A DNA stretch of 64,000 nucleotides. It comes from Pyxidicoccus sp. MSG2. Lineage in GTDB: Bacteria > Myxococcota > Myxococcia > Myxococcales > Myxococcaceae. The first letter of the stretch is position 1. Every line of letters begins with the position of its first letter. Where the stretch lies: assembly GCF_026626705.1 (NCBI RefSeq), contig NZ_JAPNKC010000001.1, positions 12,091,001-12,155,000 on the forward strand. The letters run 5' to 3'. This document shows positions 1 to 57,100 of the stretch, piece by piece. The notes below the pieces were generated by a model, which saw nothing but the letters and a program-made list of their open reading frames with translations, searched no databases and was not told the origin of the DNA. The position numbers and the translations under genes are program-made.

Positions 1-2784
1 CTCATCGGCTACGTGGCCCACTCGGCGGCGTTCCGCACCAGCTTCGCGGGCGACCCGACCTTCCGCGAGCTGCTCGGCCGCGTGAAGAGTGAGGTGTCGG
101 ACGCGCAGTCCCGGCCGGACGTGCCCTTCGAGTACCTCGTCGAAGAACTCATCCCCGGCAAGGACATTGGCCAGGGCCGGATGGCGGACACCGTCTTCGT
201 GTACCACTCCAGTGTCGGCAATGGCGCGGCGGCGCTGGAGCTGACCGGCGTGCGCGGCTCGCTGGTGGAGGTGCCCAACGCCCCCGTGCAGTGGGGCGCC
301 ACGTTGTCCGACCTGACGCTCGTCCTCTCCGAGGAGGGCGGCCGCATCCACGGCGCGCTCGAGTACGCCACCGAGCTGTACGACGAGCCCACTGCGCGGC
401 GCATGGTGGAGCACCTCCAGGTCATGATGGCCGCCGCCCTCGCCCGGCCGGATGAGCTCATCTCGCGCCTGCCCCTGGTGACGGAAGCCGAGCGGCGCAC
501 GTGGCCCCTGCCCCGCCCCGCCTCCGTGTCCGCCTCCGTGCCCGCGCTGCTCGCGGAGCGCGCGCGCCGGAGCCCGCAAGCAGTGGCCGCGAGCCAGGGC
601 GACACGTCGTGGACCTGGGCGGAGCTGTCCGCCCGTGCGAGCCGCGTGGCCGCGCGCCTGCGGGCGCTCGGAGTGCGTCCGGGGGACCCGATCGCGGTGT
701 GCCTGGAGCCCTCGCCCGCGAAGCTCGCCGTCCTCTGGGGTGTGCTGGAGGCCGGCGGCGCCACGGTGACCCTTGGCGCCACCGACCTGGGTGGACTCGC
801 CGTCTACGCTCCGGAGGGCGCCACCGCGCCGGTGCTCGTCACCTGGCGCGGGATCACCACCTCCGCGAAGCTGGATGCCACGCGCACGGTGTACGTGGGG
901 GAGACCCTGGAGGTCGCCTCCGCGCCTGTGACGCTGGACGTCCAGGCCGACACGCTGGCGTGGCTGCTGCCGGTGGGCGCGGGCAGGCCCGCGTGGGCGC
1001 TGAACCACCAGTCACTGGCGGAGCTGTTCGACGCGATGGACGGCCGGCTGCGCCCCACCGAGGGAGGCACCTGGCTGGCGGCGGCCGAGTCCACGACGGA
1101 CCGTCCGGAGCTGGAGTCGCTATGGGCCCTCTCGCGCGGCATGCGCGTGGCCTTCCCGTCGCAGCGGATGGCCGCGCAGTTGGTGCGCCTGAATGGCGGC
1201 GGGCCGCGCACCCAGGCGATGGACCTGAGCCTCATCTACTTCGCCAACGATGAGGACACGCTCGCGGGCCCCAAGTACGAGCTGCTCGTCGAGGGCGCGA
1301 AGTTCGCGGATGCCCACGGCTTCTCCGCCGTGTGGACGCCCGAGCGGCACTTCCACTCCTTCGGCGGCCTGTACCCGCAGCCCGCCGTCGTGGCGGCGGC
1401 CCTGTCCACGGTGACGCGCAACCTGCGCCTGCGCTCGGGCAGCGTCGTGCTGCCGCTGCACGACCCGATGCTCATCGCCGAGCAGTGGTCCGTGGTGGAC
1501 AACCTCTCCAACGGCCGCGTGGGCCTGTCGGTGGCCACGGGCTGGCACGTGCAGGACTTCTCCTTCAACCCGTCCGCCTACGAGGACCGGCGCAACGTCC
1601 TGCTGCGCAACCTGGAGACGCTGCGCGCCATCTGGCGCGGCGAGAAGCAGCGGCGCAAGGGCGGCGGCGGAGTCACCGTCGAAGTGGCCCTGCGGCCGAA
1701 GCCGGTGCAGAAGGAGCTGCCGGTGTGGCTCACCGCCACCTCCAGCCCGGAGACCTTCCGGATGGCGGGCGAGCTGGGCGCGGGCGTCCTCACGGGCCTG
1801 CTGGCGCACTCGCTGGAGGAGATGAAGCCGAAGGTGGCGCTGTACCGCGAGGCATGGCGCCGCAACGGCCACCCGGGCCGGGGCCACATCACCTGCATGG
1901 TCCACACCTTCATCGGTGAGGACTACCAGGAGGTGCTGCGCACGGTGCGCAAGCCGCTGCTCAGCTACTTCCGCGGCTCGGCGGACATCGTCGCCAGCCT
2001 GCTCGCGGCCCAGGGGCACCAGGGGGAAATCGACAAGGTCTCCGAGGAGGACATCAACGCCATCCTGGAGCACTCCTTCGAGAACTACGCGAAGGTCACC
2101 GGCCTCATCGGCACGGTGGAAAGCGGCCTGCAGCGGATGCGCGACATGCGCGAGGCCGACGTCGACGAGGTGGCCTGCCTCATCGACTTCGGCGTGGAGA
2201 CGCCGGTGGTGCTGGACGGCCTGCGCCACCTCGCCGCGCTGCGCGAGCGGATGGAGGCCGAGGCCACCGTCCGCCAGGAGCAGGTGCTGGTGGAGAGCAG
2301 CCAGGGCGTGGGCGAGCTGCTGGAGCTGGCGCGTCAGTCAGGCACTGTCGTTCTGCACACCTCCGCGCGGCTGGCCCGCACGCTGACGGAGCTGCCGAAG
2401 GCCCGTGAGTCGCTGGCCCCGGTGGGCGCGCTGGTCCTCGAAGGCGCGTCGGCGGAGCTGGCCACCGCGCTGCACCAGAGCGCGGGCGTGGAGGTGTTGC
2501 TGGCGGGTGGCGCGGTGGAAGGCGCCCTGCTGCCGAAGGCCCCGGGCGAGCGCGTGCCCGCGGGCCTCCAGGTCTGGGTGCTGGACGAGGCGGGCCTGCC
2601 CGTGCCCACAGGCGTCGTGGGTGAGCTGGCGCTGGAAGGCGCGGGCCTGCCTCGCGGCCTCTGGCGCGCAGCCGAGGAGGAGCGCCGCCGGCTGGTGCCC
2701 CACCCCACGGGTGCGACCCGTCGCATCTACCGCACGGGTCGGCACGTCCGCCTCCGCGCGGATGGCCGTGTGGAGTCCGTGAGC
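1..2784 (+). other. Degenerate NRPS block: partial C, split A domain with inserted luciferase-like monooxygenase, no T domain
   Basis: Bases 1-500 are the end of a C domain. From about 535 an A domain starts (A1-like WTWAELSARA, A2-like LEAGGATVTLGATD), but at the A3 position the TSGSTG loop is missing. After a weak A4-like region the frame enters a MupA/Atu3671-type luciferase-like monooxygenase at about 1207-2265 (landmarks WTPERHFHSFGG and SVATGWHVQDFSFNP). A short A remnant follows (A6-like GELALEGAG, A7-like YRTG with the usual Asp replaced by Arg). A8, A9, A10 and the whole carrier domain are absent. An Ala/Pro/Lys-rich linker (2785-2925) leads into the next C domain. Monooxygenase insertions in A domains are known from myxothiazol-type lines, but there the A domain and carrier are kept. 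Here A* should be unable to form an aminoacyl adenylate. Confidence 0.88.
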
Positions 2785-5700
2785 ATGCCCGCCGCGAAGG
2801 CGCCCGTGGCTCCCGCGCCTGGCAAGGCCCCCACTGCTCCGGCACCCAAGGCTCCGGTGGCACCGAAGGCCCCGGCGCCTCGCGCGGTCTCGGCGCAGGC
2901 CATCCCGCGCGTGCCGCGAGATCGTCCGCTGCCGCTCTCCTTCGTGCAGCAGCGGTTCTGGTACCTCCAGCAGTTGGAGCCGACCAGCGTGGCCTACAAC
3001 AACGCGTCCAACTTCCGCCTCACGGGCGCGCTGGACACGGCGGCGCTCCAGGCGGCGCTGGACGAACTGGTCCGCCGGCACGAGGTGCTGCGGACCACGT
3101 ACTCGCTCGCGGACAACGGCACCGCGGTGCAGATCATCCAGCCGGGGGGCAGCCTGCCCATGCCGGTGGAAGACGTGCACGGCGCCACGCCCGAGGAGCT
3201 CGAGGCGGCACTGATTCGCCGCTGCCAGGAGCACGCCGGCCTTCCCTTCGACCTGGAGAAGGGACCGGTGGTGCGCGCGCTGCTGTTGCGCGCGGGGCCC
3301 GAGCACCACGTGCTCAGCCTCATCCTCCACCACGCCGTCTCGGACGCGTGGTGCAACATGGTGCTCGCGCGCGAGATGACCATCCTCTACGCCTGCTTCG
3401 GCGCGGGCCTTCCGTCGCCGCTGCCCGAGCTCCCCGTGCAGTACGCGGACTACGCGGTGTGGCAGCGCCAGTACCTGGAAGGCGCGGTGCTGGAGGAGCA
3501 GCTCCGCTGGTGGAAGGACCAGCTCTTCGGGGTGCCGGCGCTGGAGCTGCCCACGGACCGTCCTCGGCCCGCGGTGCAGTCGTACGCGGGCGGCCTCCAT
3601 ACCTTCGAGTGGCCACGTGAGCTGTCCGATCCGCTGCTCGCGCTGGGTCGTCGCGAGGGCGCCACGTCGTTCATGGTGATGATGGCGCTCTACCAGTTGC
3701 TGCTGGGGCGCTACTCGGGCCAGGACGACTTCGCGATTGGCACGCCCATCGCCGGCCGCTCCCAGCCGGAGGTGGAAGGGCTCATCGGATGCTTCCTCAA
3801 CACGCTTGCCTTCCGCACGCGGCTCTCCGGGGCTCCGACGTTCCGCGAGCTGCTGGGCCGCGTGAAGCAGCAGGCACTGGGCGCCTATACGCGCCAGGAC
3901 GCGCCCTTCGAGCGGCTGATGGAGCTGCTCCAGTTGCCGAGAGACCTGAGCCGCACGCCGGTGTTCCAGGTCATCCTCAACGTGCTCAACACGCCGGAGC
4001 CGGATGCGACGCCGCAGTCGCTCCAGATCGGCCAGGTGGTGGTGCCCGCGAGCACCGCCAAGTTCGACCTGGGCCTGGAGGTCTGGGAGCACCGCGGTGG
4101 AATGACGGTGCGCTTCGAGTACTCCACGAGCCTCTTCGACCGCGCCACCGTGGAGCGCATGGCCGAGCACCTCACCGGGCTGGCCCGCGCCGTCGTCGCC
4201 TCGCCCGACCTGTCGCTGCCGCTCCTGCCGCTGCTGACGGAGGCGGAACGGGAGCAGGTGCTGGTGGAGTGGAACGCCACCGCGTCGGACTACCCGCGCG
4301 AGGCGTGCATCCACCACCTGTTCGAGCAGCAGGCCACGCTACACCCGGACGCGGTGGCGCTGGAGTTCGGCGACGAGAAGCTCACCTACGCGCAGCTCGA
4401 CACGCGGGCCAACCAGATGGCTCACCTGCTGTGGCTACACGGCGTGGGGCCGGATGCGCTGGTGGCCGTGTGCCTGGAGCGCTCGGTGGAGCTCATCGTC
4501 TCGCTGCTGGCCATCCTCAAGGCTGGCGGCGCGTACCTGCCGCTGGACGCCTCGTATCCGGCGCAGCGGTTGGCCTTCATGCTGGAGGACGCGCCGCCCA
4601 GGCTGCTGATCACGACGCAGGCACTGCGCAAGGGCCTGCCCGTTGCGGAGTCGGTGCCGTGCCTCTTCGTGGAAGAGCTGCCCCTGGCAGCCCTGCCGCG
4701 CACGCGGCCGGTGTCCGGTGCCACGTCCCGCCATCTGGCGTACGTGGACTTCACCTCCGGCAGCACGGGCCGTCCCAAGGGCGTGGCCGTCGAGCACCGC
4801 GGCGTCATGCGCCTGTTGCACGGCGCTCGTTATGCGCACCTGGGGCCCGAGGAGACCTTCCTCCTCATCGCCCCCATCTCCTTCGACGCCTCCACCCTGG
4901 AAGTCTGGGGCCCGCTGCTCTTCGGCGGTCGCCTCGTCGTCTTCCCCGCCCAGTCCCCCAGTGACCTGGAGCTGCTGAGCACCGTGCTCACGCGCCACTC
5001 CGTCACCACCCTGCACCTCACCGCAGGTCTCTTCTCCCAGGTGGTGGACTTCAAGCCCGACTGCCTCAAGGGCGTTCGCCAGTTGCTCACCGGTGGCGAC
5101 GTCGTGAGTGCGCCCCACGTGCGCCGGGTGGTGGAAGGAATGTTCATTCCGGTGACGGCCTGCTACGGCCCCACCGAGTCCACCCTCTTCACCTCCACCT
5201 GGCGGATGACGGACGCCTCGCAGGTGGGCAGCGCCATCCCCATCGGCCGGCCCATTGCCAATACCCAGGTGTACGTGCTGGACGAGCACTTCCAGCCCGT
5301 GCCCCCCGGCATCCCCGGAGAGCTGTTCATCGGCGGCGACGGCCTGGCGCGCGGCTACCTCTCGCGGCCGGAGCTGACAGCGGAGCGCTTCATTCCCAAC
5401 CCCTTCAGCGCCGTGGCTGGAGAGCGCCTCTACCGCACCGGCGACAAGGCGCGCTGGCGGGCGGACGGAGTGCTGGAGTTCCTCGGCCGCATCGACACGC
5501 AGGTGAAGGTGCGTGGCTACCGGATTGAGTTGGCGGAGGTGGAAGCCGCACTGCTGACGCACCCAGGGGTGCGCGAGGCAGTGGCGGTGGTGCGCCAGGA
5601 CACTCCGGGCGACAAGCGCCTCGTCGCGTACGTCACCGGTGACGCAGGCCCGCTCGACTCGACGGAACTGCGCGCGTACGTGCAGGAGCGGCTGCCCGAG

Positions 5701-8700
5701 TACATGGTGCCCTCCGCGGTGGTGCACCTGGGCACCCTGCCCCTCACGTCCAACGGCAAGGTGGACCGCAAGGCCCTGCCCGCGCCGGACGTCGCCGTCG
5801 CCCAGCGTGGCCGGTACATCGCCCCGCGCACGCCGAATGAGCAGACCCTCGCGGACCTCTTCGCGCAGCTCCTCGGAGTCAGCCGCGTGGGCACGCAGGA
5901 CAGCTTCTTCGAGCTGGGTGGCCACTCGCTGCTGGCCACGCAGTTGGTCGCCCGTGTGCGCACCACCTTCGGCATGGAGTTGCCCCTGCGCGCCCTATTC
6001 GAGGCGCCCACGGTGGCCGCCCTCGCCGCGCGCCTGGACTCGCGGCAGCCGGCCTCCTCGGGCTCGCGGGCAGTGCCGCCGCTGACCCGGGCGGACCGGT
6101 CCTCGCGGCTGCCCCTGTCCTTCGCACAGCAGCGGCTGTGGTTCATCGGTCAGCTCGGCGCCGGGGCCAGCGCGTACAACATCCCCATGCCGATGACGCT
6201 GGAGGGCACGCTCGACGTGGCCGCGCTCCAGCAGGGCTTCGACGAGCTGGTGCGCCGCCACGAAGCGCTGCGCACCACCTTCAGCGCGGAGTCGGGTGAG
6301 CCCTTCCAGGTCATCCACCCCGCCACCTCGCTGCCCATCGAGTCCGTGGACCTGATGCGGCTGGCCGATGCCTCGCTGCGGCAGACGGAGGCCGTGCGCC
6401 TCGCCACCGAGGAGGCGCGCCGTCCGTTCGACCTGGTCAACGGCCCGCTGGTCCGCGCGCTCCTGCTGAAGGTGGAGGAGACCCGTCACCTGCTGGTGCT
6501 GAACCTGCACCACATCATCTCGGACGGCTGGTCCACCGGGGTGCTCGTGCGCGAGATGGCCGCCCTGTACGCGGCCTTCAGCCAGGGCCAGCCCTCGCCC
6601 CTGCCCGAGCTGCCGGTGCAGTACGCCGACCACGCCGTCTGGCAGCGCGGCTGGCTCCAGGGCGAGGTGCTCGACGAGCAGCTCGACTACTGGCGGAAGC
6701 AACTCACGGGCGCACCTGCGCACCTGGAGCTGCCCACGGACAAGCCGCGCCCGCCGCGTCAGTCCTTCCAGGGCGCGCCCATGCCGCTCAACCTCTCGCG
6801 CGAGCTGAGCGAGGCGGTGGAGGCCCTGGCGAAGCGCGAGGGCGCCACTCCCTTCATGCTCCTGCTCTCGGCCTTCCAGGTGCTGCTGGCGCGCTACTCG
6901 GGACAGGACGACATCTCCGTCGGCTCGCCCATCGCCGCCCGCCGCCACGCCGAGTCCGAGGCGCTGATCGGCTTCTTCGCGAACACGCTGGTGCTGCGCA
7001 CGCGGCTGCAATCCGGAGCCACGTTCCGCGAGCTGCTGGCCCAGGTGCGCGACACCACGCTCGGTGCGTACGAGCACCAGGACGTGCCCTTCGAGAAGCT
7101 GGTGGAGGACCTGCAGCCGGCGCGTGACCTCAGCCGCACGCCGCTCTTCCAGGTCATCTTCGCCCTCCAGAACGCGCCGATGCCGGAGCTGTCCCTGCCC
7201 GGCATGTCGATGCGCTCGATGGAGCCGGAGCATGGGCTCATCCGCTTCGACCTGGAGCTGTCCTTCCACCGCACCGGGGACGGCTTCCACGGCGGCTTCA
7301 ACTACGACACCGCGCTGTTCGAGCGCACCACCATTGCCGGCATGGCCGAGCACCTTCGCGTGCTGCTGGAGGCCGCCGTCGCGTCGCCGGACCTGCCGCT
7401 GTCCAGGCTGCCTCTGCTCACCCGCGAGGAGCGCCACCAGGTGCTGTCCGCCTGGAACGACACCACGGTGGACTTCCCGCGAGACACGCCCGTGCACGTG
7501 CTCTTCGCGAAGCAGGCGTCCCGCACGCCCGGCGCCGTGGCCCTGGCCCAGGGCTCGCGAACCCTCACGTACGGCGAGTTGGACGCGCGGTCGAATCAGC
7601 TCGCGCACCACCTGCGCACGCTGGGCGTGGGCCCGGGCGCCCGCGTCGGCCTGTGCGTGGAGCGCTCGGCGGAGCTGGTCATCGGAATCCTCGGCATCCT
7701 CAAGGCTGGCGCGGCGTACGTGCCGGTGGATGCCCACCATCCGGCGGAGCGCATCACCTGGATGCTGCGCGAGGCCGGCGCCAACGTGGTCCTCACGCAG
7801 CAGTCCCTGGTGGACGGACTGCGTGACGTCGGCGGCTCGCGCGTCCTGCTCGACGCGGAATGGAACGCCATTGCCTCCCGGCCCGCCACCGCGCCGGACG
7901 TGTCGGTGAGCGGCGAGGCCCTCGCGTACGTGATGTTCACCTCGGGAAGCACGGGCCGCCCCAAGGGCGTCTGCGTGCCCCACCGGGGCGTGGTGCGCCT
8001 GGTCCAGGGCAGCCGCTTCATGCGCTTCGGGCCCGAGGAGGTCATCCTCCAGCTCGCGCCCGCGGCGTTCGATGCGTCGACCCTGGAGCTGTGGGGCGCG
8101 CTGCTGCACGGCGCGCGGCTGGTGCTCGCTCCGGCCGGGGCTCTTGCCCTGGAGGACCTCGCGGCCCTGCTCGTGCGCGAGCGCATCAGCACGCTGTGGC
8201 TGACGGCGGCCCTCTTCGAGCAGATGGCGCTGAACCAGGGCGAGTCCCTGGCGAAGGTGCGTCAGGTGCTCGCGGGCGGTGACGTGCTGCCCGTGCAGCG
8301 GGTGCGCGAGCACCTCGCGCGGCTGTCCCCGAACGCCGTGCTCATCAACGGCTACGGCCCCACGGAGAACACCACCTTCTCCGCCACGCACGCCCTGCGC
8401 GCGACGGACGACGTGGGCCGCTCGGTGCCCATCGGCCGGCCGCTGTCCAACTCCACCGCGTACGTGCTGGATGCCTCCCTCCAGCCGGTGCCGCCGGGAG
8501 TGCCCGGCGAGCTGTACGTGGGCGGAGACGGCCTGGCCTGGGGCTACCTCAACCGCGCGGACCTGACGGCCGAGCGCTTCATTCCCCACCCCTTCGCCAC
8601 CACGCCCGGCGCGCGGCTGTACCGCACCGGAGACCAGGTGCGCTGGCGCGCGGACGGCACGCTCGAGTTCCTGGGCCGCGCCGACTTCCAGGTGAAGGTG

Positions 8701-19659: not shown

Positions 19660-22110
19660 TCACCACAGCGTGATGAGTACCTCCACTCCGAGGGAACTCT
19701 CCTTGAAGACCTTGGGCCACCCGGCACTCAGCGTCCTGTCGTGTTGCTTGAACAGGGCCACGGGCACCGTCAGCCGGAGTCCCACCATCTCCATGAGGTC
19801 CAGCCCCAACCGCAGTTCCGGGAGTTGGAGGGCCGCTTCGTGCGGCGAGCTCAGGTAGCTGCCAGAGAAGCCGGCTCCCGCGCGCCATCGGAGATAGGGA
19901 CCTCGATCGAGCCACGACAACTCTCCGTCGAAGCCATCCAGGTCAGAGACCCAGTCCACGTATCCGCCAAGCGAGAACCAGCGCACCCGGGTCTCATTGG
20001 GAACGATCTGGTCCATGTCCCGCACACCGAAAGCGGACGCCCAGACTCCCATCCTCCACTCACTCCGGTTGTACGCACCGCTCTCACGTCCATCCTCGAA
20101 CGCCGCGAGCGGTTCTTCCCAGCCGAGTCCCAGGCCCCGCTGACGGCTGAGCTGAAGGGTGATGGCGCCAGTGGGGTGCGTATACGTCAGCCACTCGTCG
20201 AGGAACGCTGCGCCGACAGGTCGCATGACCACCCGCATGCCCCCCTGCTGCTTGCTGACCATGTCGTGGAACGCGTGTCCGAGCCGCTCACGAACCGGCA
20301 TCAGGTCATTCCGGGTGCCAGTCGCCACAGCTCCATTGAAGACGCCGCTGCTGTAGCGGTAGTGCGCTTCACCAAGCGCCTTGAGGAGCGCGTCGACGTC
20401 GTCCTCCTCAAGTTTTCGGAGCAATGCAGCCCGCGATAGCTCTTTGGCAGCTGTACGCAGCCTCCCAAGCTCGACCAGTTCCTCGGTGCCTCTACATGCG
20501 CCATACACGACACACCGGAAGCCAGGAGAAGACACATCGAGCACCTCCGCGACCCGGTCTGCACGGTCCTGTAACGACTCATTCTCGATGGGGGGCACCA
20601 GGAGCTCGACTGCCCGCGTCGTAGAGAACTGAGTCGCCAGGAACCAGATGGCGTCCGACATCCCGCGGAAGAAATCATGCTCGCGAAAGCGTCGGTCGAA
20701 GAAGCCCATCATGGCGAAGCGGAACTCGGAAGGAAGCACCGACGTACGACGCGGAATCTTGATGCGTCCGGACAATTTCGGCTCGTGCTCCAACGTGTCG
20801 AGGACCACGCTGTCCTGCGCCCCGGACATGAGGTTGCCCGCGTACTGGAAGTAGGTCTCAGCCAGTGGGCTGTTGGACTCTGGCTTCCGGTGCCAGGGCT
20901 TTCGCAAACGCAGAGAAGCGAAGTCCTGGTCCATGTAGACGATGGGGAAACGACTGGAGTCGAAAACGAATCGCTGTTTTTCGCTCGGGTCGGCCCTCGA
21001 GTGCGACTCCTTCTCGTTCCAGCGCATGCCCAGTCGCACTGCCAGGTCGAGTGGGTTGTTGTTGAGGAAGCCGCCGTCCACCAGCTTCAAGGAATCGGGA
21101 TCCTCCCAGTTCTCCTCGTTGAAGAACGACGCATTGAGCTTTACGGGTGGAAACGCGAAGGGGAAGGAGCCAGAGGCTTGTGGGGCGAGCAGGAGGTTCT
21201 CAACCGAAACCTCCTGCCCCCCATCTTCCCTGGGCCGCGTTCCCAGCGCCGGATAGTAGCGTTGCTCATCCACGTCCACCGCGATGAACGGCCACGTGGC
21301 ACTCTTGGCCCCTTGTAGGAATGGAAGCCGCGCTGCGAGCTTCCCTCTTCCGTGGGTCATCACCTGGACAGCGAGCTTCTCCGTTACGCGCGTGAGGTGG
21401 GCCCTGGACTCAGGCCCTCCTTCTCCAAAGGGAACCGCGCGCCCACTCAGGTTCGTCACGGTGACGCCAAAGGCGAAGGTGCAGTCCTTGCGAAACTCCG
21501 TCTCCTTCGCTTTCACCTGGATGCGTTGGAGTGTTTCCCGCATGTATGACCCGCTGAAGAGGTGGTCGGTCCTGGCTGGATCCTCGAGTGGGAGCAATCC
21601 ATCGAGGTCGAGCCTCTTGATCCAGATCTCCCAGAACAGGCTCTCCTCAGGCGACCACCGAGGCTGAGCAAAAGCCTCATCGCATGACGCGAGCCCCCCC
21701 AGGAGAGCATTCACGGCGCCGGCTGAAGCGCCCGTCCATACACGGGGGGAAGGATCCCCCAACTGGGCGTCCGCTCCCTTCTGCCGCGCAAGACTCCAGA
21801 ATCTCACGAGGGTGGAGATGAACCCTGCCTGATATGCGCCGAGGCTGATGCCTCCGCTGACGACGACGACCGGCGGGCTCCGCTTCGTCTTGTCGGCCAG
21901 GACACGCGCGACGTCCGGGTCTTGGACATCCTGGGGCGGGAACTCCTCGATGCGAGCACTCGCACTGGCACCATCGACTGAAGGCCCGGCATCGGGCAGC
22001 TCAGCACCGAGCGTCTTCTCATCGGGTACTACGTCGGCGGTGTATTCCTGAGCGAAGCCGGTAAGCGAGAACAGCAAGACCGCGCACGCGCAAAGACTGG
22101 ATCTGGGCAT
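19660..22110 (-). CDS. Secreted patatin-like phospholipase with barrel-like C-terminus
   Basis: An 816-residue protein. The start at 22110 is chosen because it opens a signal peptide (MPRSSLCACAVLLFSLTGFAQ region); the frame continues upstream to 22212 but that extension looks non-coding. The patatin core has the oxyanion loop GGISLGAYQAG (residues 86-96), the nucleophile elbow GASAGA (Ser 129) and the catalytic Asp in DGGFLNNNP (Asp 345). The last 150 residues are rich in alternating hydrophobic and aromatic strands and end in LITLW, a C-terminal aromatic as in outer-membrane barrels. This suggests a surface lipase, possibly of the patatin/barrel (PlpD-like) kind. G+C is visibly lower than in flanking genes. 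It is transcribed alone and converges on the NRPS. Confidence 0.85.
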   Translation of the reverse strand: MPRSSLCACAVLLFSLTGFAQEYTADVVPDEKTLGAELPDAGPSVDGASASARIEEFPPQDVQDPDVARVLADKTKRSPPVVVVSGGISLGAYQAGFISTLVRFWSLARQKGADAQLGDPSPRVWTGASAGAVNALLGGLASCDEAFAQPRWSPEESLFWEIWIKRLDLDGLLPLEDPARTDHLFSGSYMRETLQRIQVKAKETEFRKDCTFAFGVTVTNLSGRAVPFGEGGPESRAHLTRVTEKLAVQVMTHGRGKLAARLPFLQGAKSATWPFIAVDVDEQRYYPALGTRPREDGGQEVSVENLLLAPQASGSFPFAFPPVKLNASFFNEENWEDPDSLKLVDGGFLNNNPLDLAVRLGMRWNEKESHSRADPSEKQRFVFDSSRFPIVYMDQDFASLRLRKPWHRKPESNSPLAETYFQYAGNLMSGAQDSVVLDTLEHEPKLSGRIKIPRRTSVLPSEFRFAMMGFFDRRFREHDFFRGMSDAIWFLATQFSTTRAVELLVPPIENESLQDRADRVAEVLDVSSPGFRCVVYGACRGTEELVELGRLRTAAKELSRAALLRKLEEDDVDALLKALGEAHYRYSSGVFNGAVATGTRNDLMPVRERLGHAFHDMVSKQQGGMRVVMRPVGAAFLDEWLTYTHPTGAITLQLSRQRGLGLGWEEPLAAFEDGRESGAYNRSEWRMGVWASAFGVRDMDQIVPNETRVRWFSLGGYVDWVSDLDGFDGELSWLDRGPYLRWRAGAGFSGSYLSSPHEAALQLPELRLGLDLMEMVGLRLTVPVALFKQHDRTLSAGWPKVFKESSLGVEVLITLW

Positions 22111-22247
22111 CAGCAATGACCCCGAGAAGCGCCCCTGGTTGGAGCAGCGCGAAGCCTTGCATTGCCTGCCGGAATCCAGCAACCCGCCAGGGCTCGCAAG
22201 AACAGGCGACACCGTGCTGTCGTTCAGGCCATTGCCGCGGTGGCGGG

Positions 22248-48291: not shown

Positions 48292-48342
48292 GCGACCTGT
48301 CAATCATTGGGGAAGGTCGCGATACACAGAGGGGGAATCACC

Positions 48343-51300
48343 ATGGACGGGAGCACCGTCGAGAGCGGTATTGGTCTGTCTTCAGCTCAGAACCAGCAAT
48401 CCCTGCTGGAGCCCATCGCAATCATTGGCATGGGCTGCCGGTTTCCTGGGGCGAGCCGGCCCGAGGCCTTCTGGAAGATGCTGACGGGCGGCGTGGATGC
48501 CGTCGGTGAGATTCCGAAGGACCGCTGGGACATCTCCACGTTCTACGACGCGTCACCCGACCGGCCGGGGAAGGCGACCACGAAGTGGGGGGGCTTCGTG
48601 AATCAGCCGCTGGGGGCGTTCGACGCCCTCTTCTTCGGAATGTCGCCGCGCGAGGCCGCCTACCTGGACCCGATGCAGCGGTGGCTGCTGGAGGTGGCGT
48701 GGGAGGCGATGGAGGACGCGGGCTTCAAGCCTGAGTCGCTGGCGGGCAGCAAGACGGGCGTCTTCGTGGGCGCCTTCACGGTGGACGCCTCCATCTTCCA
48801 GCTCCAGCCGAGCAACGCGGAGCTCCTCGGGCCCCACAGCGGCACGGGCACGGCGATGACCATGGTGTCCAACCGCCTGTCCTACTGGTTCGACCTTCGC
48901 GGGCCCAGCGTGTCGCTGGACACGGCGTGCTCGTCCTCGCTCGTGGCGGTGCACCTGGCCTGCCAGAGCCTCTGGAGCGGCGAGTCCACGCTGGCGCTGG
49001 CGGGAGGCGCCTCCGCCATCTTCCAGCCCGGCTACACCGTGTCCGAGTCCAAGGCGGGCATGCTGTCGCCGGACGGGCGCTGCAAGACGTTCGACTCGCG
49101 CGCCAACGGCTACGTGCGCGGTGAGGGCGCGGGCCTCGTGGTCCTCAAGCCCCTGTCGAAGGCGATCGCGGACGGCGACTCCATCTACGCCGTCATCCGC
49201 GGCACGGCGGCCAACCAGGACGGCCGCACCAACGGCATCACCGTCCCCAACGGGGAGGCCCAGAAGGCGGTGGCCCGCGAGGCGCTGAGGCGCTCCGGCC
49301 TGTCGCCGCACCAGGTGCGCTACATCGAGGCGCACGGCACCGGCACGCCGGTGGGCGACCCGATTGAAGCGCGCGCGCTGGGCGAGGTGTTCGGCCAGGG
49401 GCGTGGCGAGGGCGAGCGCTGCGTGGTGGGCTCGGTGAAGACGAACATCGGCCACCTCGAGGCGGCGGCGGGCATCGCCGGGCTCATCAAGGCGGCGCTG
49501 TGCCTCAAGCACGGGCAGATTCCGCCGCACCTGCACCTGCAGCGCACCAACCCCAACATCGACTTCGACGGGCTGAAGCTGCGCGTCCCCCGCGCGCTGG
49601 AGCCCATGCCCCAGGGCGAGGGGCCGGCGGTGGTGGCGGTGAACTCCTTCGGCTTCGGCGGCACCAACGCGCACGCGGTGCTCTCCGAGGCGCCGCCGGC
49701 GCAGCAGGCCGCGGCGGACACGGTGGCCCCGGTGCAGCCGGGGCCGTCCCTGATGACGCTCTCCGCGCGCAGCCCGGAGTCGCTGCGCCAGATGGCCTCG
49801 CGGTGGAAGGAGCTGGCCCAGGCGAACGCGCACGACGGCGCGCCCGCGCTGCGTGAGCTCGCGGGCGCGGCGGCCGCGCGCCGCCAGCACCACCCGCACC
49901 GGCTGGCGCTGGTGTCGGGCTCCTACCGCGAGCTGGCGGACACGCTGGGCGGGTGGCTGGAGGGCGCGGAGCGGGCGGGCCTGTCCTCGGGGCAGGCGTC
50001 GTCGAAGGCGCGCGGGGAGCTGGCCTTCGTCTACACGGGCATGGGCCCGCAGTGGTGGGGCATGGGCCGGGCGCTCCTGGCCGCGGAGCCGGTGTTCCGG
50101 CAGGCGGTGGAGCGCTGCGACGCCATCCTGGGCCAGTGGACGGATTGGTCGCTGATGAAGGAGCTGACGGCGGACGAGTCCGTCTCGAAGATGACGGAGA
50201 CGCGCATCTCCCAGCCGGCCAACTTCGCGGTGCAGGTGGGGCTCACGGAGCTCTTGCGCTCCTGGGGCATCAACCCGTCGGCCATCGTCGGCCACAGCAC
50301 GGGCGAGGCGGCGTCCTTCTGGGCCTCGGGCGTGCTCACGCTGGAGCAGGGCTGCAACGTTGTCTACCACCGCAGCCGGCTGCAGCACCTGACGGCCGGC
50401 CAGGGCAAGCTGGTGGCGGTCGGCATCCCCTACGAGGAGGCCGTGACGCTCATCGACGGCTGCGTGGGGGTGTCCATCGCCGCGGTGAACAGCCCCAGCT
50501 CGGTGACGCTGGCGGGCGACCCGGCGGTGCTGGAGAAGCTGGTGGCCCCGCTGTCCACGCGCGGCGTCTTCGCGAAGTTCCTCAAGGTGGACGTGCCGTT
50601 CCACAGCCACTACATGGACCCGCTGCGCGACGAGCTGCTGTCGTCGCTGGCGGACCTGCGCCCGGTGCGCGCGAAGGTGCCGCTCTGGTGCACCGTGACG
50701 GGCCAGCGCGCCGCCGGCCCGGAGCTGGACGCGCATTACTGGTGGCTCAACGTGAGAGACCCGGTGCGCTTCGCGCTGGCCGCGCAGAACATGATGGCGG
50801 ACGGCTACCGCACCTTCCTGGAGATCGGCCCGCACCCGGTGCTCGGTGGCTCCATCACCGAGTGCGCCCAGCAGCGCAACTCGCCCGTGCGCACCCTGCC
50901 CACGCTCAAGCGCGGTGGGGATGACGTGCAGGGGATGCTGGGCACGGCCGGCGCGCTGTACACGCTGGGCGTGCAGCCGGACTGGGAGGGGATGTTCCCG
51001 GGCGCGGCGAAGCGCCCTACCCGGCTGCCCGCGTACGCATGGGACCGGCAGATCTACTGGCACGAGGCCGCGGAGTCCCGCGCCCAGCGCCTGGAGCCCA
51101 TCACCCACCCGCTGCTGGGCAAGCGCCAGGTGGCCCCGGTGCCGACGTGGAAGGGCCAGGTGATGCGCAACGGGCCGACGTGGCTGGAGGACCATGCCAT
51201 CCAGGGCGCGGTGGTGTTCCCCGGCGCGGGCTACCTGGAGATGGGGCTGGCGGCGCTGCGTGAGGCCACGGGGCGCGCGAGCGGCCCGGTGGAGCTGCAC

Positions 51301-54048
51301 GACATCCGCTTCCGCAACGCCCTCTTCCTGCGCGAGCCCACGACGCTGCAGACCGTGCTGGACACGGACGAGCCGCGCTTCACCGTCTACAGCCGCGCCA
51401 GCGCGGCGGACCCGAACTGGCAGCCGCACACCGAGGGCCGCTTCCGCGCCATCACCGCCCAGCCCACCGCGCCCGGGAAGCTGGCGGCGGTCCGCGCGTC
51501 CTTCGCGGGCGCCCCGGAGTCCGGCACCGCGGAGTGCTACGAGCGGCTGCGCGCCCAGCACTTCGAGTACGGCCCGCGCTTCCAGGGCATCCAGAAGCTG
51601 TCCACGCGGGGCGACGAGACGCTCGCCCTGGTGGAGCTGAAGGACACGGCGGACCTGGCCGGCCTCGAGCTGCCCCCGCCCCTGCTGGACGTCTGCTTCC
51701 AGGTGCTCATCGCCGGCTCGCTGGCGTCGGGCGCGAAGGAGGCCTCGCTCCCCGTTGGGATTGATCGGCTCTCCCTCTTCGGGCCGCTGACCGGACGGGT
51801 CTGGGTGCACGGCCGGGTGCGCAACACCAGCCGGCGGGCGATGACGGGCTCGCTGGACGTGTACGCGGAGGACGGGCGGCTGCTGGTCGCGCTGGAGGGC
51901 ATCCGCGTGCAGTCGCTGGAGGCCTCGGCCCGCTCGCACGCGACGCCGGAGATGTTCTACGAGATGACCTGGCACCCGCTGGAGAACGCCCCGGCCGCAG
52001 AGCCGGCGCGAGCCCCGGGGGCGTGGCTGGTGTTCGAGGACGGCCAGGGCCTGGGGGACAGGCTGGCCACGACGCTCGAGGCGGCGGGCGGCACCGTGGT
52101 GCGCGTGCGGCCTGCAACGGCCTACCGTGCGTCGCGGGACGGGCTGCGCTTCGAGCTGAACCCGGACAAGCGCAAGCACTTCGACCGGCTGCTGGACGAC
52201 GTGGGCAGCCGCCTGCGGCCGGACGGCGTGCTGCACCTGTGGGGCCTGGATGCACAGGCCACGCGCGAGCTGACCACGGACGGGCTGATGGAGGCCCAGG
52301 GCCCCGGCCTGGTGGCGTTGATGCACCTGACGCAGGCGCTGCAGGCGGCGGCCTGGCCGAAGCCCCCGCGCCTGTGGGTGCTCACCCGGGGCGCGAAGCA
52401 CGTGCCGGGTGACGTGCGCCCGCTGGAGGTCGCCCAGAGCCCGCTCTGGGGCTTCGCCAGCGCCCTCTTCCAGCAGGAGTTCCCGGAGCTGGCCGGCGGC
52501 GCGGTGGACCTGGACCCGTCCGCGCCCGTTGCGGAGGTGGAGCGGCTCCTCTCGCTGCTCCAGCGCCCGTCCACCGACTCCCTGGTGGCCATGCGCGGCG
52601 AGCAGCTCTGGGGCGAGCGGATGGTGCCGGCGCCGAAGGTGGCCTCGGGCTCGCTGCCGGCGCAGCTGCGTCCGGACGCCACGTACCTCATCACCGGTGG
52701 TCGTGGCGGCCTGGGGCTGGTGTTCGCCCACTGGCTGGTGAAGCGCGGGGCGCGCCGGCTGGTGCTGGCGGGCCGCACGGCGCTGCCCGACCGGCGCAGG
52801 TGGCACATGCTGGATGCGACGTCGTCCATCGGCCGGCAGGTGGCCGCGGTGCGCGAGCTGGAGGCACTGGGCGCGAGCATCCACCCGGTGGCGCTGGACG
52901 TCACCGACGAGAAGCGCATGAAGGAGTTCGTCGAGAACTTCCGCCGTGAGGGCTGGCCGTCCATCCGGGGCGTCATCCACGCGGCGGGCGTCGTCCAGCC
53001 CCGGCGCTTCGCGGACCTGGAGTCCTCCCAGCTCCGCGACACGCTGGCACCGAAGCTGGCCGGCGGGTGGAACCTGCACAAGCTGCTGGCGGAGGAGACG
53101 CTGGACTTCTTCATCCTCTGCTCGTCCGTCAACGCGCTCGGCTTCTCCATGGGCGTGGCGGACTACGCCGCCAGCAACTCCTTCCTGGACAGCCTGGCGC
53201 ACTCCCGGCGCAACCAGGGGCTGCACGCGCTCTCCGTCAACTGGAGCGCCTGGGACGAGGTGGGCATGGCCAGCGAGGAGCAGGTGGCCCACGACTTCGA
53301 GCGGCGCGGCATCATCCCCATCCGCCCGGCCCAGGGCGTGGAGGCGCTGGAGCGCAGCCTGGAGCACGACCTCCATCAGGTCGTCGTGCTGGCGGCGGAC
53401 TGGCAGCGCATCCTTCGCACCGGCTACCCGACGACGCAGCCACCGGCCATGGTTCTTCCCATCGTCGAGCAGCTCGCGGCGAGCACTCCGGCCCAGGAGG
53501 GCGAGGGACAGCAGGACGACGTGCGCGCGAAGCTCGCGGAGGCCGCGGACGACAAGTCCCGCCGGCAGGTGCTGGAGGACTTCCTGGCGGACGTGGTGGC
53601 TCGCACGCTGCGGCTGTCGAAGGAGCAGGTGGACCGGCAGCAGTTCCTCCAGGGACTGGGGCTGGACTCCATCGTCGCGGTGGAGCTGCGGCTCCAGGTG
53701 GTGAATGGCCTGGGCGTGGGCCCCACCCTCATCGAGCTGCTGCAAGGCGCGAGCGTCACGTCGCTCGCGGTCCTGCTGCTCTCGCGGCTGCAACCCGCCG
53801 CCGGAGCCACGGCCACTCCCGAGCCGGCCAAGGTGGTCCAGGCCCGGGTGGAGCCCGTGAAGGTCCAGCCCGTCGCCGCGATCGTCCGGGAGCTGCCGCC
53901 CGCGCCGCAGCCAGTCGCGGAGGTCGGTGACCTGGCGGCCACCCTGAAGGACCTGTCCCAGGAGGAGCAGGAAGCGCTCCTCCTCGCGGTGGAGCGGGAA
54001 CTCGCGCAGCAGGCGGAGCATGCCGGCGTCGAGCGTGTGACCCACTAG
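48343..54048 (+). CDS. Type I polyketide synthase, one module (KS-AT-DH-KR-ACP)
   Basis: 1901 residues from the ATG at 48343, eight bases after AGAGGGGG; an in-frame TTG at 48307 lacks a ribosome site. KS with Cys in DTACSSSL (48928-48930) and both His motifs (EAHGTGT, NIGH). AT with GHSTGE (Ser 50296-50298) and VPFHS, closer to malonyl than methylmalonyl type. DH with DHAIQGAVVFP and DVCFQ. KR with GGRGGLG and YAASN, lacking the B-type LDD. One ACP with GLGLDSI (Ser 53668-53670). No loading module or enoyl reductase. It should add one C2 unit and leave an alpha,beta-double bond. A C-terminal helical tail probably docks on the NRPS downstream. Confidence 0.96.
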   Translation: MDGSTVESGIGLSSAQNQQSLLEPIAIIGMGCRFPGASRPEAFWKMLTGGVDAVGEIPKDRWDISTFYDASPDRPGKATTKWGGFVNQPLGAFDALFFGMSPREAAYLDPMQRWLLEVAWEAMEDAGFKPESLAGSKTGVFVGAFTVDASIFQLQPSNAELLGPHSGTGTAMTMVSNRLSYWFDLRGPSVSLDTACSSSLVAVHLACQSLWSGESTLALAGGASAIFQPGYTVSESKAGMLSPDGRCKTFDSRANGYVRGEGAGLVVLKPLSKAIADGDSIYAVIRGTAANQDGRTNGITVPNGEAQKAVAREALRRSGLSPHQVRYIEAHGTGTPVGDPIEARALGEVFGQGRGEGERCVVGSVKTNIGHLEAAAGIAGLIKAALCLKHGQIPPHLHLQRTNPNIDFDGLKLRVPRALEPMPQGEGPAVVAVNSFGFGGTNAHAVLSEAPPAQQAAADTVAPVQPGPSLMTLSARSPESLRQMASRWKELAQANAHDGAPALRELAGAAAARRQHHPHRLALVSGSYRELADTLGGWLEGAERAGLSSGQASSKARGELAFVYTGMGPQWWGMGRALLAAEPVFRQAVERCDAILGQWTDWSLMKELTADESVSKMTETRISQPANFAVQVGLTELLRSWGINPSAIVGHSTGEAASFWASGVLTLEQGCNVVYHRSRLQHLTAGQGKLVAVGIPYEEAVTLIDGCVGVSIAAVNSPSSVTLAGDPAVLEKLVAPLSTRGVFAKFLKVDVPFHSHYMDPLRDELLSSLADLRPVRAKVPLWCTVTGQRAAGPELDAHYWWLNVRDPVRFALAAQNMMADGYRTFLEIGPHPVLGGSITECAQQRNSPVRTLPTLKRGGDDVQGMLGTAGALYTLGVQPDWEGMFPGAAKRPTRLPAYAWDRQIYWHEAAESRAQRLEPITHPLLGKRQVAPVPTWKGQVMRNGPTWLEDHAIQGAVVFPGAGYLEMGLAALREATGRASGPVELHDIRFRNALFLREPTTLQTVLDTDEPRFTVYSRASAADPNWQPHTEGRFRAITAQPTAPGKLAAVRASFAGAPESGTAECYERLRAQHFEYGPRFQGIQKLSTRGDETLALVELKDTADLAGLELPPPLLDVCFQVLIAGSLASGAKEASLPVGIDRLSLFGPLTGRVWVHGRVRNTSRRAMTGSLDVYAEDGRLLVALEGIRVQSLEASARSHATPEMFYEMTWHPLENAPAAEPARAPGAWLVFEDGQGLGDRLATTLEAAGGTVVRVRPATAYRASRDGLRFELNPDKRKHFDRLLDDVGSRLRPDGVLHLWGLDAQATRELTTDGLMEAQGPGLVALMHLTQALQAAAWPKPPRLWVLTRGAKHVPGDVRPLEVAQSPLWGFASALFQQEFPELAGGAVDLDPSAPVAEVERLLSLLQRPSTDSLVAMRGEQLWGERMVPAPKVASGSLPAQLRPDATYLITGGRGGLGLVFAHWLVKRGARRLVLAGRTALPDRRRWHMLDATSSIGRQVAAVRELEALGASIHPVALDVTDEKRMKEFVENFRREGWPSIRGVIHAAGVVQPRRFADLESSQLRDTLAPKLAGGWNLHKLLAEETLDFFILCSSVNALGFSMGVADYAASNSFLDSLAHSRRNQGLHALSVNWSAWDEVGMASEEQVAHDFERRGIIPIRPAQGVEALERSLEHDLHQVVVLAADWQRILRTGYPTTQPPAMVLPIVEQLAASTPAQEGEGQQDDVRAKLAEAADDKSRRQVLEDFLADVVARTLRLSKEQVDRQQFLQGLGLDSIVAVELRLQVVNGLGVGPTLIELLQGASVTSLAVLLLSRLQPAAGATATPEPAKVVQARVEPVKVQPVAAIVRELPPAPQPVAEVGDLAATLKDLSQEEQEALLLAVERELAQQAEHAGVERVTH
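48409..49690 (+). other. PKS ketosynthase domain
   Basis: Full KS: IAIIGMGCRFPGA at the N-terminus, active Cys, and both catalytic His. It is an extending KS (DTACSSSL), not a decarboxylating KSQ, and is preceded by only 22 residues, so the starter must come from a separate enzyme or acyl-CoA. Confidence 0.93.
50020..50925 (+). other. PKS acyltransferase domain
   Basis: FVYTGMGPQWWGMG start, GHSTGE nucleophile. The specificity site VPFHS aligns with HAFH (malonyl) rather than YASH (methylmalonyl). Malonyl-CoA is the best guess. Confidence 0.75.
51091..51925 (+). other. PKS dehydratase domain
   Basis: Catalytic His in DHAIQGAVVFPGAG (codon 51193) and Asp in LLDVCFQ (51688), with FEYGPRFQG between. 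Both active-site residues are present, so it should be functional. Confidence 0.88.
51955..53420 (+). other. PKS ketoreductase with structural subdomain
   Basis: A structural half-domain (51955-52660) precedes the catalytic KR with TYLITGGRGGLG (from 52681), CSSVNALG, and catalytic Tyr at 53164 and Asn at 53176. No LDD triad (the sequence is GVVQPRR), so B-type stereochemistry is not supported; the hydroxyl would anyway be removed by the DH. Confidence 0.88.
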
Positions 54049-54092
54049 CCGGGCCTTCCTGTCCCAATCCAGCAAGTCATCCACACATCGGG
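54049..54092 (+). other. Spacer between PKS and NRPS genes
   Basis: First part of the 100-base gap between the two synthase genes; no gene. The hairpin at 54093-54130 follows, and GAGAG at 54134-54138 is the weak ribosome site of the NRPS start. Confidence 0.5.
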
Positions 54093-54130
54093 GGGGCCCC
54101 CTTGGGCCCCTGCCTTGTCTGTTCTTTTTT
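54093..54130 (+). terminator. Intercistronic hairpin with T-tract between PKS and NRPS
   Basis: 7-bp stem GGGGCCC / GGGCCCC with a CCTT loop at 54093-54110, followed by a T-rich stretch that ends in TTTTTT (54125-54130). The T-run begins 15 bases after the stem, later than in a standard intrinsic terminator, so it could be a partial terminator or a processing site. Confidence 0.5.
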
Positions 54131-54148
54131 CCAGAGAGTGACGCGGAC

Positions 54149-57100
54149 ATGCAGAACTCGTTGAAGGATCGGTTGGCGGCGTTGTCTCCGGAGCAGCGGC
54201 AGCAGCTCGCGCAGCTCTTGAAGCAACAGGGTGCGCCGAGTTCGAACACGCTGTTCCCGCTCTCGCAGAACCAGTGGGGCCTGTGGTTCCTGTACCAGCT
54301 CGCCCCGGAGGCCGCCGCGTACAACGTGGCGCTGCCCATCCGCGTCCACGCGCCCGTCGAGCTGAGGGCCATGGAGCGCACCCTGGAGCGCATGGCCGCG
54401 CGCCACGCGGTGCTGCGGACGACCTACGAGACGACGGCCGAGGGCCCCCGCCAGCGGGTGAATGAGCGGCAGGGCATCGCGCTGGAGCAGCACGACGTGG
54501 CCGACGTGACGGATGCCCAGCTCTTCGTCCACATGCGCAAGAGCTACCTGCGGCCCTTCGACCTGCAGCATGGCCCGGTGGCGCGGCTGGACATCTTCTC
54601 CGTCGGGCCGGAGGACCACGTCCTGCTGCTCGTCATCCACCACATCGCCACGGACCTGTGGTCGATGGCGATGTTGCTCGAGGAGCTACAGCAGCTCTAC
54701 CGCGAGGAGACGGGCGGAGCGAAGGCGGAGCTGGCGCCGCTGCCGGTGGACTATGCGGGCTACGTGCGCCAGCAGCGGGAGATGCTGGACGGGGCGCGCG
54801 GGGCGAAGATGGAGCAGTACTGGCTGGGCGAGCTGCAGGGCGGCCCCCAGCCGCTGGACCTCCCGGCGGACCACCCTCGCCCGCCGGTGTGGACGTTCCG
54901 GGGCGCGGTGCATGAGCTGAGCTTCGGCCCGGAGCTGTCCGCCAGCGTCCGGGCGCTGGCGCGCGCCGAGGGCAAGACGGTCTTCGCGGTGATGCTCGCG
55001 GCCTGGCAGGCGCTGCTGCACCGCTACACCGGGCGCACCGACATCATGGTGGGCACGCCCATGTCGGGCCGCACGCAGCCCGACCACCAGCGGCTGTCCG
55101 GGTACCTGGTCAACTTCGTGGTGATGCGCGGCGACCTGGAAGGTGACCCCACCTTCCGCGAGCTCACGGAGCGGCTCTACCGCAAGGTGCTCGGCGCACT
55201 GGAGCACCAGGACTTCCCCTTCCACCGGCTGTCCGAGCGGCTGGGGATGAAGCCGGACTCGAGCCGCCCGCAGTTCATCGAGGCGGGCATCTCCGTGGAT
55301 GCGATGCTGCGCCTGCCCGGCCTGGGCGCGGGCTCGTCGCTGCCCGGCGAGCCGGTGCCCTTCTTCTCGCAGCAGGACGGCCAGCTCGACGTGCACCTGC
55401 ACCTGGTGGACACGGGCTACGACATGATGGGCGCGCTGCGCTACTCGGCGGACCTGTTCACGCCGGAGACCGCGGCGCGCATGGTGACGCACCTGCGCCG
55501 GCTGCTGGAGGGCATCGTCCGCAGCCCCGGCATGCGTGTGTCCGAGCTGCCGCTGCTGGCCGAGGACGAGCGCCGCCGGCTGATGGTGGACTGGAACGCC
55601 TCCGCCGTGGCCCTGCCCGGCGATCCCCTGGCACACCACGTCTTCCACCAGCAGGTGGAGCGGACGCCGGACGCACTCGCCGTCGTCGCGGGGGACGTGT
55701 CCCTCACGTACCGCCAGCTCCAGCAGCGCGCGCGCCAGCTCGGCGGGCACCTGCGCTCGCTCGGTGTCGGCGTGGAGAGCCGCGTGGCGCTGTGCCTGGA
55801 GCGCGGCAGCGCCGACCTCGTGGTGGCCATGCTCGCCACCCTGGAGGCGGGCGGCGCCTTCCTGCCGCTGGACCCGGCGCATCCGCCGGAGCGACTGGCG
55901 TACCTGCTCCAGGACTCCGCCGCGCAGGTGCTGCTGACGCACCGCGCGCTGAAGGAGAAGCTCCCCGCGCACGGCGCGGTCGTCCTGTGCCTGGACGTCG
56001 AGTCCGAGGCCCTGTCGCGGCAGGCCGAAACGGCCGCGGCCCCCGCCCTCTCGCCGGACGACCTGGCCTACGTCATCTACACGTCCGGAAGCACGGGGCG
56101 GCCCAAGGGCACGCTGCTGCACCATCGCGGCCTGGTGAACACGGCGCTGGCGGCGGCGGCCAGCCTGCGCCTGGGGCCCGGGGAGCGTGCGCTGCAGCTC
56201 GCGTCGCCGGCCTTCGACGCGTCGGTGTGGGAGGTCTTCTCCGTCCTGCTGTCCGGGGCCACGCTGGTGCTGGCGTCGCGCGAGCAGTTGATGCCGGGCG
56301 ACGAGCTCCAGGCCCTGCTGTCCGCCGAGCGCATCACCGCCATCACCTCCACGCCGACGGTGCTCTCACGCCTCCAGCCGGAGGCGCTGCCCGAGCTGCG
56401 CACGGTGGCCTCCGCAGGTGAAGCCCTGCCTCCGGCCCTGGCGCGCCGCTGGGCCGAGGGCCGCTTGATGCTGAACGCGTACGGCCCCACGGAGACGACG
56501 GTGTGCGCCTCGGTGACGCCGGGCCCGGTGGACCCGGACCGCATCACCATTGGCCGGCCGTTCGCGAACACGCGGCTGTACGTGCTGGACGCGCGGCTGC
56601 GGCCGCTGCCCGTGGGCGTGCCGGGCGAGCTGTACATCGGCGGCACGGGCGTGGCCCGGGGCTACCTGGGGCGGCCGGAGCTGACGGCGGAGCGCTTCGT
56701 CCCGGACGCCTTCGGCACGGAGCCTGGAGCGCGGCTGTACCGCACGGGCGACCGGGCCCGGTGGCTGCCAGACGGCGAGCTGGAGTACCTGGGCCGCCTG
56801 GACTTCCAGGTGAAGGTGCGCGGCATCCGCATCGAGCTGGGCGAGGTGGAGTCCGAGCTGGTGAAGCACCCCGCCGTGAGCGACGCGGTGGTGGTGGCGC
56901 GCGGGGACGCGGAGGACACGCGACTGGTGGCCTACGTCGTCGCCCCGAACGCGGACACCGCGGCCCTGCGCGCCTGGCTGCGCGAGCGCCTGCCCGAGTA
57001 CATGGTGCCCACGGCCTTCGTGGCCCTGGAGCAACTGCCGCTGACGCCCAACGGCAAGCTGGACCGCAAGGCCCTGCCCGCGCCGGAGGCGGCCCAGCCG

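Follow-up and report, generated by a model that had tools for sequence, protein, structure and literature searches.

In the myxothiazol and melithiazol assembly lines, nonribosomal peptide synthetase (NRPS) modules of the MtaG/MelG kind carry a luciferase-like monooxygenase (LLM or MOx) inside the adenylation (A) domain, in the order C-A-MOx-A-T (C, condensation domain; T, carrier). Such modules combine an intact glycine A domain (specificity code DILQLGMIW or close) with a T of their own, and their LLMs are thought to oxidize alpha to the thioester on the glycyl-T of the same module, following the myxothiazol model (PMC11342130). In PuwE of puwainaphycin biosynthesis (polyketide synthase (PKS) module-aminotransferase-Ox-NRPS module), an oxygenase (Ox) domain situated between the PKS and the NRPS module has been assigned the role of hydroxylating the acyl chain at position 2 (PMC4219810). 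For CalD and MndB (calyculin and mandelalide), chain shortening by an LLM has been described (PMC8739492), as has one-carbon extension with an Ox domain for calyxamide and keramamide (Entotheonella), whose PKS modules with oxygenase domain and one-carbon-extended products we liken to the present system by description only (PMC12858407). Here we analyze 64,000 nucleotides from Pyxidicoccus sp. MSG2 (contig NZ_JAPNKC010000001.1, positions 12,091,001 to 12,155,000, forward strand; henceforth the window), in which a giant NRPS/PKS gene harbors an LLM inside a degenerate A core (A*) without a carrier.

The LLM family and its insertion site in the A domain are common to the window module and to MtaG, MelG and crz-like clusters. 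Unlike these modules, with their intact A domain and own T, the window module has a dead A domain and no T, and a PKS module always precedes modules of its kind. As in PuwE, the LLM lies between a PKS acyl carrier protein (ACP) and the C domain of the next NRPS module; PuwE, however, contains an aminotransferase and no C-A* scaffold, whereas here a C domain (C1) and the N-terminal part of A* (A*N) stand between ACP and LLM, setting the module apart from the PuwE type. Aminotransferase-LLM relatives are found in genus g8 genomes of the same family (L076, L079, L081). Judging from sequence and context, we consider it probable that the unit C1-A*-LLM-A* works as a cassette that is coupled to the PKS module before it and oxidizes the chain without elongating it.

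The carrier-less module and its split adenylation core

The first 19605 bases of the window form the 3' part of a single NRPS/PKS gene with frame +1 open throughout; read upstream in the assembly, the full gene is one open frame of 14,406 aa (contig positions 12067385-12110605, G000:C1). According to purpose-built domain profiles and Pfam, it starts with an acyl-ligase-like loading domain followed by C-A(MT)-T (MT, methyltransferase), four C-A-T modules and a KS-AT-ACP module (KS, ketosynthase; AT, acyltransferase). Then come C1-A*N-LLM-A*C without a carrier, five C-A-T modules and a thioesterase (TE). The KS-AT-ACP module, immediately preceded by an A-T module, lies just upstream of window base 1; it is of malonyl type, has its KS active-site cysteine in YTACST, and contains no ketoreductase (KR), as the stretch from AT to ACP is an Ala/Pro linker. 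The carrier-less block is the unit between this PKS carrier and a complete C2-A-T module.

When A* is aligned with intact A domains from elsewhere in the protein, the core motifs A1, A2 and A6 remain recognizable, whereas A3 reads PVGA--GRP-A in place of YTSGSTGRPKG, A4 (FDAS) is lost, A5 reads GGAVE instead of YGPTE and A7 reads TGR instead of TGD. A8 to A10 are missing, and an Ala/Pro linker runs on to the next C domain. The elements of functional adenylation (P-loop A3, A5, the Asp of A7, the A8 hinge and the Lys of A10) are thus missing from this alignment, and A* yields no usable specificity code, in contrast to the DILQLGMIW of intact LLM-bearing A domains. The A profile matches at positions 3-218 and 218-388 of 490 (170 and 89 bits) and stops at 388, and no match to the T profile was obtained between A* and C2.

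The carrier-less C-A* block with an inserted LLM is therefore real, as an earlier note, made from the letters of the window, had described it: pieces of A1, A2 and A6 flank a complete LLM, while A3, A5, A8 to A10 and T are gone. The A7-like piece listed there aligns at its position but is degenerate. A C domain does precede A*, but it starts upstream of the window and no more than its C-terminal part lies inside; the carrier that the note sought upstream is the ACP of KS-AT-ACP rather than an NRPS T. A structure model of the whole block (mean pLDDT, the predicted local distance difference test, 55 with 27 sequences), likewise suggested in the note, is usable only in its A*N part, which matches A domains of the PDB with Z ~22-25 over ~190-225 residues (Z ~25 over 213); outside A*N the model is too weak, and we therefore make no fold claim for LLM or A*C from it.

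The LLM itself looks intact at the sequence level. It belongs to family TIGR04020 with 489 bits at a curated cut-off of 244.45, covering model positions 1-341 of 341. Its closest solved relative is the PuwE oxygenase (6ket; 354 bits, 45% identity), and it keeps 58 of the 63 residues that are invariant across intact-module, aminotransferase-type and PuwE LLMs.

Polyketide partner, recurrence and origin

LLM modules were sorted into three kinds. Type I has the intact glycine A domain (DILQLGMIW or a close variant) and a T, type II is the carrier-less kind (C1-A*N-LLM-A*C), and in type III the LLM is followed by C-A-T, the three cases with readable upstream sequence standing, like PuwE, behind a PKS carrier and an aminotransferase-like stretch (recognized by eye). 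The 50-odd annotated carrier-less copies, with at least one contig (L039/L072) entering the count twice, share one architecture, with an own carrier in none. All copies with readable upstream sequence (47/47) directly follow the AT-ACP of a PKS module, and in five further copies the locus ends at the carrier. This placement fits the proposal of the earlier note that the LLM may act on a neighboring carrier. The gap from AT to ACP measures 58-322 aa; KR absence is read from the linker of the window gene only. The malonyl signature HAFH is present in 50 of 54 ATs of LLM-bearing lines, the other four giving no pattern match.

Beyond the window, the carrier-less module occurs in 28 loci. Named isolates of Myxococcus, Corallococcus, Pyxidicoccus and Archangium account for 27 of them (M. 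xanthus AM003 included), and a Myxococcaceae metagenome-assembled genome for the last; 26 of the 28 loci were aligned and are 63-95% identical to the window module, the closest named relative being Pyxidicoccus caerfyrddinensis (94% in the best segment). At E <= 1e-100, 61 of 96 family genomes match, the window's own included. Setting aside seven of them (genera g8 and g20) with intact or aminotransferase-type modules, or modules that are not carrier-less where examined, leaves 54 of 96 with strong, nearly full-length matches. For 12 pairs, dN/dS amounts to 0.14-0.44 in A*N, 0.04-0.31 in A*C and 0.03-0.27 in the LLM, and mean pairwise identity to 62%, 69% and 81%, respectively, compared with 59% for the opening part of the working A domain that follows. 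By these sequence comparisons A* is under purifying selection, and its retention as a conserved A-fold scaffold around the LLM is supported; having lost its key adenylation motifs, A* agrees with the earlier idea that the A fold serves as a scaffold only. Because of its recurrence in 54 of 96 genomes, the purifying selection on A* and the fixed KS-AT-ACP context, the carrier-less module is neither a sequencing error nor a product of decay.

The A profile is split at ~212-218 in both type I and type II, the LLM insertion site being identical. A maximum-likelihood tree of 67 LLMs unites every type II LLM in one group with 100/99 support (including L043, a copy shortened by its contig), and midpoint rooting nests this group among the type I LLMs. 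A nested single clade therefore suggests that adenylation and carrier were lost a single time from a glycine-oxidizing module, which became linked to a PKS module. Single origin of type II from such a module is the most likely reading of the tree, and it bears out the earlier suggestion of a derived tailoring module of myxothiazol ancestry, now seen in dozens of genomes. Outside the family, the matches examined are all type I, comprising four in other families of the phylum and seven of 80 matching plasmid records (Streptomyces, Nostoc, Deinococcus, Aminobacter and Shinella, all with T), and the best reading of this distribution is a lineage-restricted cassette.

The catalytic motif of the window C1, HHVVCDT, is located upstream of the window. 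HHxxxDT is found in 54 of 54 type II C1 sequences (a few being overlapping copies of one locus), compared with mostly HHxxxDG or HHxxxDA in ordinary C domains of the same lines and HHxxxD[GAS] in C2, and the C1 domains form one group (support 1.0). Among four type III C domains, three read DG and one DT. Few ordinary post-PKS C domains were compared, so that DT may mark the cassette or PKS-accepting C domains at large. A tandem duplication giving rise to C1 and C2 is not claimed: the two are neighbors in the FastTree phylogeny, but deeper branches are unsupported (0.1-0.2). Another departure from HHxxxDG occurs in C domains after acyl-ligase loading domains of related lines, 10 of 21 reading HHL[IV]TDF.

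Seven full LLM domains were counted in the window genome. Four are of type II and two of type I; the seventh (L017) follows a C domain and has no recognizable A domain. A type I and a type II module lie 18 kb apart (L013 and L014; G000:C1:11768680 and 11786834), probably in one cluster. In a paralogous cassette at ~8,367,000-8,370,000 (G000:C1; L016/L073), C1 and A* lie in different reading frames, through either a natural gene split or a frameshift; in four relatives (L060, L065, L066, L067) the cassette occupies a single frame. Some A domains look doubly interrupted, the LLM separating A4 from A5 and a methyltransferase-like stretch separating A8 from A9. Such domains appear in L082 and L090, and probably in L093 and L094, where only a gap of methyltransferase size is observed.

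Proposed reaction and competing explanations

As the unit recurs directly after a polyketide step wherever this is readable, the LLM most likely oxidizes the growing chain and does not lengthen it. The PKS ACP would carry a beta-keto-gamma-amino acyl chain and visit the LLM, where reduced flavin and O2 would hydroxylate the activated alpha-carbon between ketone and thioester. C1 lacks an acceptor carrier and so cannot elongate, leaving the next residue to C2-A-T; it would probably act as an ACP-docking or gating domain, or may be skipped, and C2 would join the oxidized chain to the next amino acid. Either the chain would be passed on with an alpha-hydroxy-beta-keto unit, or over-oxidation would remove the thioester carbon and leave an alpha-ketoamide residue extended by one carbon. 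The latter outcome would resemble the C1 extensions of the keramamide/calyxamide kind (PMC12858407) and the chain shortening by LLMs in calyculin and mandelalide (PMC8739492). Two points weigh against this proposal: C1 keeps HHxxxD and may remain catalytic, and the LLM substrate could in principle sit on another carrier.

A bolder extension, which we put forward tentatively and hold to be rather doubtful, regards the cassette as a transplantable oxidative homologation. Together with a malonyl PKS module, it would lengthen an amino acid by one carbon and give the alpha-keto (beta-amino-alpha-ketoamide) form. C1, marked by the fixed HHxxxDT, would constitute a new functional C class that makes no peptide bond but presents the ACP chain for oxidation or joins in C-C cleavage and chain transfer.

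Should the LLM act on a downstream carrier, its substrate would be either the amino acid that the next A-T loads or the chain once C2 has condensed it, in keeping with type I LLMs, which act on the residue of their own module, downstream of the preceding carrier (PMC11342130). Specificity codes, however, show residues varying before and after the cassette, the downstream A codes ranging widely (Ser-, Pro-, Asp/Asn- and hydrophobic-type), whereas the preceding KS-AT-ACP is constant; PuwE-type LLMs moreover work on the PKS acyl chain (PMC4219810), and we judge a downstream substrate unlikely.

That the module is a decaying relic, an old C-A-MOx-A-T module which lost its function and is skipped by the line, would account for the disappearance of all key adenylation motifs and the carrier from A*, but is highly improbable in view of the purifying selection on A* and LLM, the conserved LLM residues, the C1 motif fixed as HHxxxDT, and one old clade with full-length matches in dozens of genomes. 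In albicidin-type lines, trans-complemented modules with a dead A domain retain their own carrier. Equally improbable is a stand-alone A-T that supplies an aminoacyl carrier replacing the lost one, a solution known for dead A domains (PMC8949500), given that none of the 50-odd copies has an own carrier. Oxidation of the chain on the preceding ACP hence stays our preferred reading.

Cluster type, neighboring features and implications

The window gene is probably of the myxoprincomide type (MXAN_3779, BGC0000393), as suggested by the giant single gene, the module in M. xanthus AM003, the patatin neighbor and the reported conservation of the cluster in Myxococcus and Pyxidicoccus (PMC12224551; PMC10435759), and the locus is therefore likely already known or published. 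MXAN_3779 was compared via AM003, not via the DK1622 gene, and module number and residue codes may differ. The neighbor, a patatin-like phospholipase gene adjoining the NRPS gene (window 19660-22212, minus strand), has 60-61% identical counterparts in AM003, G077 and G063. In G077 its distance to the module is ~19 kb, as in the window, and the locus lies near the chromosome middle; MXAN_3779 has been placed at 180 degrees (PMC3778016). G054, from the same genus, carries the NRPS module but yielded no patatin counterpart. Myxoprincomide contains a 2-oxo-beta-amino acid residue, which would match the alpha-keto outcome.

The A-T module before the KS of myxoprincomide-like loci shows a recurring code, DGLHHGGVI/DGMHHVGII, that we could not match to a known amino acid. 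A second assembly line at window 48307-64000 comprises a KS-AT-DH-KR-ACP PKS (DH, dehydratase), then an NRPS of at least three modules running off the window, and resembles the myxochromide layout. Coordinates of the carrier-less module and its successor are given in Table 1.

Table 1 Positions in the window of the carrier-less module and of the complete module that follows it
Feature	Position	Strand	Evidence
C1, C-terminal part (C domain of the carrier-less module)	1..498	+	profile match, motif; full domain at protein aa 7590-8038
A*N, N-terminal part of degenerate A core (A1, A2 kept; A3, A4 lost)	532..1209	+	profile, alignment, model
LLM, MupA/Atu3671 family, between A4 and A5 positions	1219..2250	+	TIGR04020, 489 bits
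A*C, second part of degenerate A core (A5 lost, A6 kept, A7 TGD to TGR), ends before A8	2302..2829	+	profile 218-388 of 490, alignment
Ala/Pro-rich linker replacing A8-A10 and carrier	2830..2928	+	alignment; no T profile match
C2, condensation domain of next complete module, HHAVSDA	2929..4296	+	663 bits; motif
Intact A domain of next module, code DALHLGCLF	4321..5790	+	profile, specificity code
T of next module, first carrier after the cassette	5824..6036	+	profile

In the literature searched, which did not cover the primary 2012 paper, we found no description of the carrier-less class, of a single origin for it, of the rule of a PKS partner or of the C1 signature, and no paper joining MOx, alpha-ketoamide and PKS. 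Predictors that count modules could take the cassette for an extra amino acid. Conversely, the rule KS-AT-ACP, C with HHxxxDT, A*-LLM-A*, no T would flag lines likely making oxidized or alpha-keto residues, which act as protease-inhibiting warheads in other natural products. The cassette, with one apparent origin and a PKS module without reductive domain as its strict partner, suggests that a complete elongation module can turn into a pure tailoring device, its dead A core being kept as a scaffold.

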